Below, piece by piece: positions 14,652 to 21,002 of a stretch of 64,000 nt of DNA. Each line of letters opens with the position of its first letter. The stretch's first letter is position 1. The DNA is from Viridothelium virens (Eukaryota > Ascomycota > Dothideomycetes > Trypetheliales > Trypetheliaceae). Both the position numbers and the translations under genes were made by a program. The notes beneath the pieces were generated by a model. It was given only the letters and a program-made list of their open reading frames with translations. It searched no databases and was not told the origin of the DNA. The stretch is taken from assembly GCA_010094025.1 (NCBI GenBank), contig ML991809.1, positions 186,001-250,000 on the forward strand, in the 5' to 3' direction.

Positions 14652-15234
14652 TCAAGCCGCCGCAGCCTGTGTACTACCTTCACCTCCTTGTCCAGAGAGC
14701 ACCTTTTGTCTGATTACATCCTCAACCATGCTTACACTCCGTCCCTTGCTCTGCACCGCTTTTTCTAGATCCTTAAGATTCTTCTCTAGGTCATCTACCT
14801 TCTCGTTGTAGAATGTGGTCGCATCCTCAGGACTTTTTTCCAAAAAAAATCCAGTTCCAACATCTACGAGGACAGAACGTACAGATGACAGCGTAGCGGG
14901 AACGTAGAGAGAGGGCGTGAGTGGGATAAGTAAGTTTTGAGCTTTGGATTCCGTGTCGTTGGTGACGTGAAGCTTCTGCGGCCCATTTGGGAAAGTGCGC
15001 TGTATGTTGCTGAGGCAGTCGCGAAATTTGTTCTGAGCTGCGCGTAGATTTTGGTATGAAGTGGTGAGATGGGTGAGTTCGTCGTCAAGTTGTTTTTTTA
15101 CTTGAGAGAGTTGCGGGGTTGAGAGGGTGCTGAGGTCGACTGGAAATTGATCAGCTTCTGCACTAAACCGCGCCAGTAGCATGGAAAAATGCTTGAGTAC
15201 CTGATTGACCTTGGGGACTTGTTGTAGCTGTCAT
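14652..15234 (-). CDS. GIM5: Prefoldin subunit 5 (Gim5)
   Basis: Exons 15234-15201 and 15139-14652 join in phase 1 to give 173 residues beginning MTATTSPQGQSVDLSTL. The intron has donor GTACTC, branch GCTGAT and acceptor TTTCCAG; a frame read straight through it would use a false start at 15182. The product shows the alpha-type prefoldin pattern: N-terminal helix PQLSQVKKQLDDELTHLTTSY, a central beta hairpin region (LLIPLTPSLYVPATL, VLVDVGTGFFLEK) and a C-terminal coiled-coil helix DDLEKNLKDLEKAVQSK. Prefoldin is the hexameric chaperone that hands unfolded actin and tubulin to CCT. The gene is divergent from the CPC1-type gene across about 0.9 kb. Confidence 0.93.
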
Positions 15235-15322
15235 TCCGGCTACCACAGATGGAATTGGAGATGTTTGCTCTGCCCGCAGGAGATGATCGACGTCACAGAA
15301 ACAGACCGGGAAGCTTTGATAT

Positions 15323-15346
15323 CACGTGCATGATGATCGACACGTG
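15323..15346. promoter_or_regulatory. Paired CACGTG E-boxes
   Basis: Two CACGTG palindromes lie about 18 bp apart, 90-110 bp upstream of the GIM5 ATG and further upstream of the CPC1-type gene. CACGTG is bound by bHLH factors such as Cbf1 and Pho4 in fungi. The sites are visible; occupancy is inference. Confidence 0.4.
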
Positions 15347-15504
15347 CCCGGGACCCTGGCCGTTAGGCCGTTGATGAAAGTTAAGTCAACGCCGTGGGGT
15401 GGGATGAATTAGGTGCGGAAATAAACTACACCGTATTCCGTAGATGGTAGTTTAACAGCCGGAAAAGCAACTCCGAGTAGCTCCGCTAGTATGCGATGAA
15501 TGCC

Positions 15505-15511
15505 TGACTCA
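15505..15511. promoter_or_regulatory. GCN4/CPC1 recognition element TGACTCA (distal)
   Basis: A perfect 7-bp GCRE/CPRE, the consensus bound by the product of the adjacent gene class. Together with a second copy at 16184 it suggests autoregulation, which is known for cpc-1 and cpcA. Confidence 0.5.
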
Positions 15512-16122
15512 CCTCTAGCATCCAACACTGATGCCTGCGATTGATCTATAGGAAAAAGCGCCCCTCGCATTCAATCTTCCGGGGCCGCGTTATGCATGCA
15601 GTGCATTCGTCAAGATCTCAACGAACGGCTGCGGAATACGTCCGTAAATGGGAGTACGGCTTCGTGTTGCCCCTTACCGTACCGGCTGAATAGACGAGAT
15701 TGGAGAGAGATTTATCGCTGCCTGCAGCTTGGCCGCCTTTGTGATTGGACTCGTGGCTGCATTAGCTGGGCAAGGCGCAATGCGTTGCTTACTGAGCGGG
15801 TTTTTGGAGTCTGCCTAGCGAGGCGGTGTTCACAGGATCGCTGACCCTGGCCGGTCCACGACGACAGGCCACGCAATAGTCGCAATCGCTGTGTCTGTGA
15901 ATTTGCTTCAAGAAGTCATGCTGGGAATTATAGTCATGAGGAGCGGTCTTTGTGGTTGTCGTGAGTATTTGGGATGATCGCAAGCTACAGATCTCGTCGC
16001 AATTCACTGTCCGTGGCGGTGGGGGAAAAAATCATCTCACGATCCCGGCCGGTTTCAAGGTTGACCGACGAGGACGAGTGCTGGGCAAGCAGAGGGCGGC
16101 ACGCTAAACCGCCTTGAGTCTG

Positions 16123-17637
16123 ATGCATTCATCGGCGATTGGTCAGACGCAGCCAGGATTCACGGCTGGTCAGGGTTTTGCAGTGACTCACACTCACGAT
16201 AGCGCGGGGATAGGGCGCACCCACACTCCCACACTTCCATTAATAAGGCACCAAACCCCCATCTCTGCCTGGCTCTTCTCTTCCTCCCAACCACCCACAT
16301 TGTATCCATACAGTAATCAAAAGAGACAACCACAGGCATGGCTGTCTTCTAGTTCTTCGTCTTCACCTCAAATCTTGTCCAACGGCAAGATAGCTCGGTT
16401 CAGTCTACCGGTTAACTCTCCACTCAATAACAATTACCATTCAGAGCTTCTGCTTGCAGATCCTCTGAACTCAAGGCCAGCCTCGCGCACCTTCAGTTCA
16501 CCTTCAAACACCTTCACCACGTTCGACTTCACGTCGTTCACCACGGCTCAACCACAGCAACAATGGCTTTCTCCATCATTGTCAGCTCCCCGGCATCCGC
16601 CACAACCAACCTTCAGCAATCAACAAGACTTCGTTCTGTACGATCAACCACCGGCACCCTCCCAGGCCAGCCGTCACTCTCCCGCTACGAATCCGCGGCA
16701 TACGTTTAACAGCGTCCACAACCAATTTCCTACATCTTCACCGTCGACTTCTGTTGCCACTGTGCATCAACGTAGTAACTCTGTTCAACGTCCACCGGTT
16801 CCTCTTTTCTCTAGCAATAGTGGTTCTAGTACATCTCAGCAGTCTGTCACTATGTTTGCAGGTAGTTCTCCTTCCTGTAGCTCTGTGTCTTCTCAAAGTC
16901 TTACGCCATCTTCAGACATGAACGAGAACTCTGCGGCCAGCCTTGGTGGCTGGACCGACGGATTCGGTACTCAGTCTATGACTGATGCGGAAATGGCCGC
17001 CCACATTACCAACTTTACGTCGATTAATGGCAACAACAACGAGTTCCAGCAATCGACGTCAACTGGCGGCACCATCTCTCCAAGCGATCTCGTCAATGAA
17101 TCCGTTCCGAACTCCACTGCTATGACCAACCTGACATCGCCTTCTCCATGGGAGACTCCACTCGATGATTTTGAGACTTCTCCCCTGTTCGATGGCCTTC
17201 AGGGTGATCCGACTCTCGGAAGCTCTGACCAATGGTTCTCTCTCTTCCCGGACCAGGAGCATGACAATGATGTTATCCAACGATCCACCTCCCAACGCTC
17301 ATTCGACTCTGCCGCTAGCGCTTCTCCTATCGTTCTCCACCCTGGTGGTCAATCCAACCGCAAAATGTCTACAACTGCCTCCCCTGCTGTCAAGCACTCC
17401 CAGACTGCTGGTGTGCACAAGAAAAACCGTGAACTTCCTCCCATCCTCGCTGATCCTGGAGACCCGATCGCTGTCAAACGTGCTCGAAATACTGCAGCAG
17501 CTCGGAAATCTCGTGACAGGAAAGTCAAGAAATTCGAGGACATGGAAGGAGAGATCATGGCACTTCGCCGAGAGAAGGCTGACTTGCAGGCTGAGATGGA
17601 AGAGTGGAAAAAGCGAGCTCTGGCTCGAGGCTCGTAA
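16123..17637 (+). CDS. cpc1: CPC1/GCN4-type bZIP activator of amino acid biosynthesis
   Basis: One open frame of 504 codons from ATG 16123. The last 60 residues are a bZIP: basic region KRARNTAAARKSRDRK, then a short leucine-zipper helix, preceded by the GCN4-like lead-in NRELPPILADPGDP. Acidic/aromatic activation segments lie at SPWETPLDDFETSPLFDG and SSDQWFSLFPDQE, as in CPC1/CpcA/Gcn4. The start is uncertain. From in-frame ATG 16852 the protein would be 261 residues, close to the 245-281 of characterised CPC1, CpcA and Gcn4, leaving a long leader with two short out-of-frame ORFs. Against that, the main frame stays open for 240 codons before 16852 and looks protein-like (QQDFVLYDQPPAP, RPPVPLFSS). 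The factor drives the cross-pathway amino-acid starvation response in the nucleus. Confidence 0.85.
   Translation: MHSSAIGQTQPGFTAGQGFAVTHTHDSAGIGRTHTPTLPLIRHQTPISAWLFSSSQPPTLYPYSNQKRQPQAWLSSSSSSSPQILSNGKIARFSLPVNSPLNNNYHSELLLADPLNSRPASRTFSSPSNTFTTFDFTSFTTAQPQQQWLSPSLSAPRHPPQPTFSNQQDFVLYDQPPAPSQASRHSPATNPRHTFNSVHNQFPTSSPSTSVATVHQRSNSVQRPPVPLFSSNSGSSTSQQSVTMFAGSSPSCSSVSSQSLTPSSDMNENSAASLGGWTDGFGTQSMTDAEMAAHITNFTSINGNNNEFQQSTSTGGTISPSDLVNESVPNSTAMTNLTSPSPWETPLDDFETSPLFDGLQGDPTLGSSDQWFSLFPDQEHDNDVIQRSTSQRSFDSAASASPIVLHPGGQSNRKMSTTASPAVKHSQTAGVHKKNRELPPILADPGDPIAVKRARNTAAARKSRDRKVKKFEDMEGEIMALRREKADLQAEMEEWKKRALARGS
16184..16190. promoter_or_regulatory. GCN4/CPC1 recognition element TGACTCA (proximal)
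   Basis: A second perfect TGACTCA, about 60 bp inside the longest open frame of the bZIP gene. If it works as an autoregulatory site, transcription may begin downstream of it, which argues against ATG 16123 as the start. Confidence 0.45.
16338..16352 (+). other. Short upstream ORF candidate 1 (MAVF)
   Basis: ATG GCT GTC TTC TAG, out of frame with the bZIP frame, after a CT-rich stretch that looks like a 5' leader (16240-16310). Its size matches the very short first uORF expected of GCN4-type translational control. Confidence 0.4.
16563..16709 (+). other. Upstream ORF candidate 2 (48 codons)
   Basis: Starts CAACAATGG, a strong context, and encodes 48 residues out of frame with the bZIP frame, ending TAA at 16707-16709. 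It lies 210 nt after candidate 1 and 142 nt before ATG 16852. The layout resembles the two-uORF leaders of N. crassa cpc-1 and A. nidulans cpcA, in which the second uORF is the longer one. Confidence 0.4.
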
Positions 17638-18548
17638 GCTGCCTATTGTGATGCTTACTGCTCCTATCCGTCTCTTTCTTTTCTTTTGGCGCCGACTAGG
17701 ATGTGCAAAAGTGCTTGGCTTTCCTGGGATTCCTTTTTTCCTCGCCATCTCCTGCTCTTTGGGACATAGCGACATCTCCTCTCAGGCTCACCTGATTTGC
17801 ATGATGTTCGCATTGATTATAGTTTCTGTTTTAACCTTCCCGCAACTGCCCACTCTCCCTGATATTCTTGATTTACAGTTTTTGTTATTTTCTTGGCTGG
17901 TCGGTTCTGATTGTCGTCTGCCTTAACGGTGGATTCGACTCGTGGCCTTGCCATACTTAGTTTATATTATGATTGCTGATTGCTGAAGAGGCTGACGGTG
18001 GTGGAGACAGATGATTCTCGACTTGATGTAGTCTTTGCAATATACACCACCACATTCATTGGACTCACGTACACTGCTGCTGTGACCTACGTAGTCATTT
18101 GTAAAGATCTTGTGCTGGATAGAGAACACCTCCGTGAACATCGTCGCCAAAATCTGTCTAACAGAGGCCTCTCAAAGTTGACGCATCCTGCGTATATCTA
18201 AACGCGTCATTCAACCAGACGTGTGGCAATGAGGACGACCCTTGCTCGAGAAATCTAGATCCCTTTCAGGATTTGTCTGCACTGTACTCCGTAAGTCAAG
18301 CCGACTTTCAATCCTCGATGAAGACATGACCTTTGTAGAACCTGCTCATCCTCAGTCCATGTCTGAATCTATCCTTAATGGTGACATCCACCTCACCGGA
18401 ATTGCATAGAGATAAAGTCAGATATTCATCGATTTGGTTTCGATTGCTTTCAAACATGTCGATGTCTTTGTATAGTACTAAAGGCTCTGTACACATGGCA
18501 ATCTCTGCAACCCTCCCACCTCCAACCCCCTCCATCCTCCCCTTCCCC
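17638..18548. other. Tail-to-tail intergenic region
   Basis: 0.9 kb between two convergent genes. The first 300 bp are T/C-rich, as in long 3' untranslated regions. Frames there are shadows without motifs. Confidence 0.4.
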
Positions 18549-21002
18549 TCAGATCCACAACCTCCCCACCCCATCCGCTCCCACACTCACACACCACGCC
18601 TCTCGTCCATGCCACCCCACCTCCAACACCCCCAGTCCCCCTTCCACCCTATGCCCCACCAACCGCTTCAACGGCACAATAACCGGCTCCTCCAACCCAT
18701 CCGCCACCACCCTCGCATGCAGCACATGCACCGCGCCATCATCCGCCCCACTCGCCAACAACGGCACCCCACCACCACTCGGATGAAATGCAACACTACG
18801 CACCGCTCTCGCATGGTACCTCAGCGTCTTCCAGGGCAGCGGGCCCAACTCCAAGTCATGCCACAGCACGCGTCGATCGTACGCCCCGCACACGAGATGC
18901 GCGCCTGCACCCGGGTGCACGGCGATGCTGCTGAGCCAGCGCGCGCCGGGCCGCAGCGTCTTCGCCAGCGTCTGCGCCTGCAGGTCGTAGATGCGGACGG
19001 AGCGCTGGGTCGCGAGGAAGAAGAGCGGTTGCGTCGGGTGGAACGCAGTGGTTTGCGGGGCGCCGCCGCTGGAGCTGGGGATCCGTCGGAAGGGGTGCTG
19101 TGATGTGTGCGTGGGGAGGGTGTGGATGGTGACGGCGGTGCGGGACGACGCGGCGGTGGGGCTGGTGCTCGACAGGTGGGCGCCGCGCCGGTGGAAGCTG
19201 AGCGATTTGATGGGGGAGGTGGTGCTGGTTAGGGTGATGAGGAGGTGGATGGAGGAGGCTTGGAGGGAGGCGGGAGGGCGCGTCCAGGTTGCGGGGGAGT
19301 CTTTGGCTGGGATGGAAGAGGAGGAGGAGGATTTGGTGGCGGCATGTCCGAAGCCGGCGGAGAGGATGTCGTGGCTGGCTTGCTCGAGCTCGGGGTTGAT
19401 GAGAGAGGACGGGATCATCCAGTAGATGGTTTCGCCGGCTGCTGCAGTAAGGATGAAAGCGTCTCGGCCTGGGCGCCAGCGAACTACGTTGACGGCCTCG
19501 TCTGAGGAGAGTTTTGCTGTCCAGCATTGTCGGCCGCTGAGGATATGCCAGACCCGGACTGTACCGTCATCTCCAGCTGTAGCAACCCAGTTGCCGGACG
19601 GGTCGACGTCTACGCTCCGTACTCGTCCCTTGTGGCCTCGGAAGACAGTGGCGCATGCTGTAGGGAATGGGCGCAGTTCCTCGGGGCTTGGCAATTTTGG
19701 TAGGAGGGACTCAGGATCAATATTGAGCTTACTCCGTCGAACTCGAGGGGCAAGATACAGATCTAGACACCGCTCGAACTTCTCTTTCACGAAGCCACCA
19801 TATCCCGCCACCTTCCGTAATGCGTCATGAGTCTTTGGTAGGTACTCCCTTTCCCTTTCTTCAGGGTCCTGGCTTTCCCAAGTAGCCTTCTCGTCCTTGT
19901 CGGGCAGATACTCCGGTGGAGGTCTGTAGCTCTCCTCGTAACCCGGAGGAGGGAGCTTTGGAGCTGGGACGTGCATAGGATGGTCAGGTCGTGGAGCTTC
20001 GTCGGCCCAAATGTCGTACGTCTTCACGTCCGGATCTTGCTCTTCTTCCTCTTCCGGGGGTCTGTAAGGTTTTATGCGTCCTTCCCTTATTGCTCTCACC
20101 ATTTTCATCACCCGTTTGGCTTCATGCTTTGAAGGCACAAAGCGGCGCTTGGGTTCTGGAGCCGCACTCAGTGGCATGACCTCCTCCTTCCCTGAAAAGT
20201 ATTCAATCATGTTCGGATAGGGGTCGTAGCCGTCTACTGTGACTTCATTCCTTGTAAGCTTCTTGAGCACTTCCAGCTCCTCTTGGTTTAGCTCCAAAGG
20301 CTTGCCGGTAGCTGGATCGGTCAGACCCGTCCACCCCTCTGGTATGTCTATACTGTCAAGTAGTGCATCCAAAGCTTCGCCCTTTGCCGGTCGCATAATC
20401 TTCTTGCCGTTGATATCATAACCTATATGTGGATATACCTCATAGAAGTGTGAAGGTATGTTGCCGACAGTGTTTGCATTGGCCGGCGCGTCAGAATCAT
20501 CAGAGTCGTAGATAGGGTCAATTTCACGGTAGAGATATCGTGGATTCCCATTGGCATCTTGCGTGATAGTGTAGTTCGGTCCAACATCATCCTCGTCCAC
20601 TTCAACGTCAGCCAGAGCGTGGTCCTGTTTCGTGCCATTCTTAGAGATCACAGTTCCATCAGCACTTCTCTCTACTTTACTGGCATGGTCTTGGACCCTT
20701 TTGCTCCCCCCTCCTTGCTTTTGAGACTTGAGATCACTGACGAGCTGCCGGAGACCCCCCTTTCCTTCCTCGGACAAATCGCCGTTACTACTCAGCTCGT
20801 CGAGATCCGTTTCAGTGCCTTCGTCATCAAGTCCACTGAAATCGTCCTCGTCACTGCCACTATCATCTTCGGCCTCGGAGATATTTTCGCTACTGAGGTC
20901 AAGACCGTTGACGAGATCAATGGGTAAATCATTATCTGCAGATTCAGGCGGCGAGTTTCTTGTCACAATCTTCCGTTTCTTGCCCGCGACCGCGTTCGCC
21001 AT
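18549..21002 (-). CDS. ERB1: Ribosome biogenesis protein Erb1/BOP1
   Basis: Single-exon gene, 817 residues. An acidic Ser/Asp/Glu-rich N-terminus is followed by the BOP1NT domain (about 150-430), recognised by [36 protein letters not shown] and [15 protein letters not shown]-terminal WD40 propeller follows ([54 protein letters not shown]), ending GVGRLWI. Erb1 forms the PeBoW complex with Ytm1 and Nop7 for 60S maturation in the nucleolus. The loop at about 560-640 is Ser/Thr-rich. The 3' third is notably GC-rich compared with the 5' half. It is divergent from the Zn2Cys6 gene with 304 bp between the two ATGs. Confidence 0.95.

Follow-up and report, generated by a model that had tools for sequence, protein, structure and literature searches.

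The 64,000-nucleotide stretch of the Viridothelium virens genome analyzed here (the window; GenBank assembly GCA_010094025.1, contig ML991809.1, positions 186,001 to 250,000) contains a gene that, judged by its sequence, is the cpc-1/cpcA gene (the GCN4 homolog) of this filamentous ascomycete, encoding a Gcn4-type basic leucine zipper (bZIP) factor. Its main frame is open on the forward (+) strand from 16108 to 17634 (509 codons), between an in-frame stop codon at 16105 to 16107 and the terminal stop codon at 17635 to 17637, and the only ATGs of this frame within 16101 to 16900 are at 16123 and 16852. An earlier, sequence-only reading had set two interpretations against each other, one in which translation starts at or near 16123 and one in which it starts at 16852 behind a leader with two upstream open reading frames (uORFs). 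They need not compete, because the leaders of Pezizomycotina cpc-1 genes combine two AUG-initiated uORFs with an open CPC1 frame (PMC5487733); the two interpretations are then two parts of one known arrangement. Frame analysis recovered every coordinate of that reading, including both ATGs and both uORFs. The features of the gene and its leader are as follows.

16852 to 17637, + strand: main open reading frame, CPC1/CpcA, 261 amino acids, start context GTCACT-ATG-T, open without an intron
17467 to 17613, + strand: bZIP_2 domain (PF07716), residues 449 to 497 of the 504-amino-acid open frame, E value 8.5e-8, above the cutoff
16338 to 16352, + strand: uORF1, MAVF followed by a stop (5 codons), context ACAGGC-ATG-G, at -514 from the main AUG
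16563 to 16709, + strand: uORF2, 48 amino acids and a stop (147 bp), context GCAACA-ATG-G, at -289 from the main AUG

The CPC1-type identity proposed from the sequence alone was borne out by the bZIP_2 domain and by a phmmer search against PDB sequences, in which the top five matches were all GCN4 (best match 2dgc, E value 2.6e-6). The gene thus has the C-terminal bZIP closest to Gcn4 that characterizes the CPC1/CpcA/Gcn4 family, whose members switch on amino acid biosynthesis genes upon starvation, and its product looks like such a regulator of the amino acid starvation response. A scan of 16200 to 17637 with strict donor, branch site, and acceptor consensus sequences, which leaves looser introns possible, gave one candidate intron (17411 to 17589, 179 bases); it was rejected because its removal would disrupt the reading frame and cost the protein most of its bZIP domain. 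A further in-frame ATG lies at 16918 to 16920 on the + strand, 22 codons past 16852 (residue 23 of 261), and could yield a slightly shorter main product. Searching the 30.7-Mb genome with the 504-amino-acid frame (E value up to 10) recovered, apart from the locus, a single weak match (E value of 0.17, with one stop); as this search scores only the three best candidates, it supports a single copy only weakly. An Rfam search of 15200 to 17700 (E value up to 1) gave no match.

The anatomy of the leader closely follows that described by Ivanov et al. (2017), who analyzed 100 Pezizomycotina cpc-1 homologs; all 100 have a uORF1 of 3 to 6 codons and a uORF2 of 35 to 70 codons, and in all of them the CPC1 frame stays open far upstream, without an in-frame stop between the uORF2 AUG and the main AUG (PMC5487733). 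The V. virens uORFs, with 5 and 49 codons, stops included, fall within both ranges. Both are in the -1 frame relative to the CPC1 frame, and uORF2 overlaps the N-terminal extension of CPC1 in that frame. No CPC1-frame stop lies between the uORF2 AUG and the main AUG, and 248 codons are open ahead of 16852; the shortest published extension has 160 codons (PMC5487733). The frames and the published pattern together support the 261-residue protein from 16852 with a two-uORF leader, and a leader that both carries uORFs and is translated in frame, which the sequence-only reading had raised as one option, is supported as well, being the published state of Pezizomycotina cpc-1 genes (PMC5487733).

In the Neurospora crassa work, four near-cognate codons, NCC5 to NCC8, initiate translation in cell extracts, and the removal of NCC5, 6, 7, or 8 leads to the loss of specific products (PMC5487733). 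Footprints obtained in vivo map to the CPC1 frame where they lie outside the uORFs, and the extension is under purifying selection, with a ratio of nonsynonymous to synonymous substitution rates (dN/dS) of 0.348 between NCC8 and the main AUG versus 0.144 for the main open reading frame (PMC5487733). The most conserved near-cognate start is NCC8, an ACG with A at -3 and G at +4 that is kept in 98 of the 100 homologs; NCC6 (CUG or UUG) and NCC7 (AUU, AUC, or AUA) are kept in 77 and 74 of the 100, respectively (PMC5487733). A commentary summarizes that work (PMC5676045). Between uORF1 and uORF2 of V. virens, two near-cognate codons of the CPC1 frame have A at -3 and G at +4, and the second of them would open a long extension.

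16390 to 16392, + strand: ATA near-cognate codon, CPC1 frame, A at -3 and G at +4, candidate additional start
16543 to 16545, + strand: ACG near-cognate codon, CPC1 frame, A at -3 and G at +4, with no other near-cognate codon of this frame between it and uORF2
16543 to 16851, + strand: N-terminal extension from ACG 16543, 103 codons, predicted isoform of about 364 amino acids

By codon, context, and order, ACG 16543 is likely the counterpart of NCC8, an assignment made without the published alignment. When 16339 to 16563 was shuffled, an in-frame ACG with A at -3 and G at +4 arose in 203 of 5,000 shuffles, and such a codon was the last near-cognate codon in 49 of 5,000.

Codon choice also favors the CPC1 frame as coding sequence past uORF1. 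With a model built from 15 open frames of the window, the synonymous score of the main frame over 16353 to 16851 was reached by 5 of 1,000 shuffles. A second model, built from 51 long open frames (26,925 codons), gave the CPC1 frame a synonymous z score of 3.15 over 16354 to 16851 (3 of 1,000 shuffles were as high), with -0.26 and -1.89 for the other two frames; the main open reading frame itself scored 1.33. Within the leader, z was 2.29 for 16339 to 16563 and 2.34 for 16564 to 16707, where the CPC1 frame overlaps uORF2. Among 678 frames from 113 noncoding-like stretches used as controls, 3 reached 3.15. This signal is suggestive, short of decisive, because close to 5% of wrong frames reach 3.15 and multiple stretches were scored.

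The openness of the frame itself was compared with that of 5,000 dinucleotide shuffles per stretch. The frame remained open in 29 shuffles of 16109 to 16851 and in 49 shuffles of 16240 to 16851, and to that extent the earlier suggestion that such a frame is unlikely by chance was moderately upheld. Overall, the single-sequence evidence for an in-frame extension is only moderate.

Taken together with the published homologs, these observations point to a Neurospora-type cpc-1 leader, in which uORFs control a 261-amino-acid CPC1 and near-cognate initiation adds minor extended isoforms; we give this reading a probability of roughly 0.87. The reading frames, the bZIP domain, the start contexts, the NCC8-like ACG, the suggestive codon signal, and a CPRE-type site described below are what is observed in V. 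virens, and we infer every step of translation and regulation from N. crassa and yeast. Ribosomes would translate the short uORF1 and then resume scanning. With plentiful amino acids they would reinitiate at the inhibitory uORF2, and with eIF2-alpha phosphorylated by Gcn2 they would skip uORF2 and initiate at the main AUG at 16852, producing the 261-amino-acid factor. A minor share would start at near-cognate codons of the CPC1 frame between the uORFs, most likely ACG 16543 and perhaps ATA 16390. These starts would bypass uORF2 and yield isoforms lengthened at the N terminus to about 364 to 415 residues; 16563 to 16709 would then be read in two frames. For the main protein, a start at 16852 under uORF control is most likely, and the in-frame extended isoforms probably start at the near-cognate codons rather than at 16123. 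The leader anatomy fits GCN4-type reinitiation control tuned by Gcn2. The genome also encodes a PF12745 domain (250 bits, within a 1,316-codon open frame), which is typical of Gcn2 kinases.

Several points weigh against the part of this reading that concerns the extension. Counterparts of NCC6 and NCC7 could not be assigned in the order published for them, again without the published alignment: CTG codons at 16450 and 16465 are in weak context, and ATA 16390, in good context, lies 5' of both. The whole-codon score, which includes amino acid makeup, was negative over 16353 to 16851 in all frames (-0.15 for the main frame and -0.26 and -0.19 for the others), unlike the scores of the two halves of the main open reading frame (+0.17 and +0.25), so the extension is unlike the average protein of this genome. 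The segment from 16708 to 16851 has no codon-choice signal of its own (z of -0.29). A z score of 3.15 was reached by 28 of 615 wrong-frame and 11 of 123 true-frame control segments and is therefore not specific, and the 18 stretch-frame combinations were scored uncorrected. The stretch from 16353 to 16851 remained open in 193 of 5,000 shuffles, and a second frame (positions mod 3 = 2) is likewise open on the + strand from 16469 to 16918 (150 codons); both qualify the claim that openness is unlikely by chance. A search for relatives that would allow dN/dS to be calculated found none in viral_contigs (with the main open reading frame) or genome_contigs (with 432 amino acids), which are viral and bacterial/archaeal collections and are uninformative on fungi. 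In N. crassa, toeprints did not reveal the NCCs, luciferase derived from them had <1% of main-AUG activity in vivo, and larger products persisted in vitro, at reduced levels, after all of NCC5 to NCC8 had been removed (PMC5487733).

A rival reading is the canonical GCN4-type mechanism alone, with two uORFs, a start at 16852, and an upstream frame that is open merely through a C-rich, stop-poor leader. The negative whole-codon score, the 193 open shuffles, the second open frame in the same stretch, and the lack of a codon signal next to the main AUG all agree with it. Composition (about 35% C) helps to keep the frame open, and because of this the C-rich explanation offered by the sequence-only reading is tenable from a single sequence. 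The second frame has no ATG up to 16900 and no codon-choice signal over 16354 to 16851, and it looks like such a composition effect. Against the canonical mechanism alone stand the rarity of open shuffles over the full 16109 to 16851 and the main-frame z score, and the published cross-species evidence argues against it, with 100 homologs that lack an in-frame stop from the uORF2 AUG to the main AUG and have a dN/dS of <1 (PMC5487733). We consider it unlikely.

The upstream region, which bears on a start at 16123, has the following features.

16123 to 16125, + strand: first in-frame ATG, poor context AGTCTG-ATG-C (C at -3 and C at +4)
16184 to 16190: TGACTCA, CPRE-type site, at -668 from the main AUG and 61 bases downstream of ATG 16123
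15505 to 15511: TGACTCA, CPRE-type site, in the upstream region common to a divergent prefoldin gene

The CPRE motif mediates autoregulation of Aspergillus nidulans cpcA (PMC3199737). Taken alone, the CPRE match is weak, as TGASTCA sites number 5 in the window versus 11.4 expected by chance, although 2 of the 5 are in the upstream region of cpcA. The N. crassa cpc-1 transcript begins 703 nucleotides before the main AUG (PMC5487733), which here corresponds to about 16149, downstream of ATG 16123. By this analogy, ATG 16123 likely sits in the promoter, upstream of the transcript start. It has an open frame behind it, from 16108, but as a translation start it is unlikely because of its poor context, its position 5' of the CPRE-type site and of the expected transcript start, and the lack of a codon-choice signal over 16108 to 16336 (z of 0.62); on these grounds, the earlier proposal that translation begins at or near 16123 is not supported. 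An alternative upstream transcript that included this ATG, giving an AUG-initiated 504-residue CPC1 that bypasses both uORFs, is very unlikely; if it existed, it would represent a promoter-switched CPC1 isoform that escapes the uORFs, for which the published homologs offer no example. That the extended protein is simply made as a 504-amino-acid product of ATG 16123 on a longer transcript is extremely unlikely for the reasons above, and no upstream in-frame AUG able to make the extension was found in the published homologs (PMC5487733).

The most improbable explanation is that ribosomes make the extension by shifting +1 from the uORF2 frame instead of initiating at near-cognate codons, an alternative that Ivanov et al. 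kept open, but one that sits poorly with the specific products abolished by removing single NCCs in N. crassa (PMC5487733) and that leaves the codon signal upstream of uORF2 unexplained.

The locus, as far as its sequence can tell, carries every testable feature of the published pattern except NCC6/NCC7. As in N. crassa cpc-1, a short uORF1 is followed by a long uORF2 in the -1 frame, the CPC1 frame is open through the leader, the bZIP is C-terminal, and the last near-cognate codon before uORF2 is an ACG with A at -3 and G at +4 (PMC5487733). The two uORFs of N. crassa occupy frame 2 (uORF1) and frame 3 (uORF2) (PMC5487733), whereas here both are in the same frame, and V. virens differs further in having the in-frame ATG at 16123, which is probably upstream of the transcript. 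The cpcA gene of Leptosphaeria maculans is, like this one, intronless, with two uORFs and an upstream CPRE (PMC3199737). The respective values for L. maculans and V. virens are MAAI at -541 and MAVF at -514 for uORF1, 159 bp at -344 and 147 bp (stop included) at -289 for uORF2, -698 to -703 and -668 for the CPRE or CPRE-type site, and 246 and 261 amino acids for the protein (PMC3199737). GCN4 of Saccharomyces cerevisiae has four uORFs. It shares with the V. virens gene the homologous bZIP and a permissive first and an inhibitory last uORF, roles that are presumed here, but differs in lacking an N-terminal extension of the main frame (PMC5487733).

The gene has two neighbors. The divergent one, at 14652 to 15182 on the reverse (-) strand, encodes a prefoldin subunit (PF02996, E value 4.8e-22) and has an upstream region of about 1.15 kb in common with cpcA, with both TGACTCA sites inside it. 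The convergent one, at 18549 to 21002 on the - strand, encodes BOP1NT and WD40 domains (PF08145, E value 3.4e-104), presumably as in the ribosome biogenesis protein Erb1/BOP1.

The arrangement at this locus is already known, having been described for the cpc-1 genes of the Pezizomycotina. Ivanov et al. left the function of the extended isoforms open, and some annotations include the extension with its start unresolved (PMC5487733); automated annotation of such genes varies. V. virens cpcA would add to an instructive known case, a single mRNA for one factor whose leader regulates through uORFs and also supplies coding sequence to longer isoforms of that factor.
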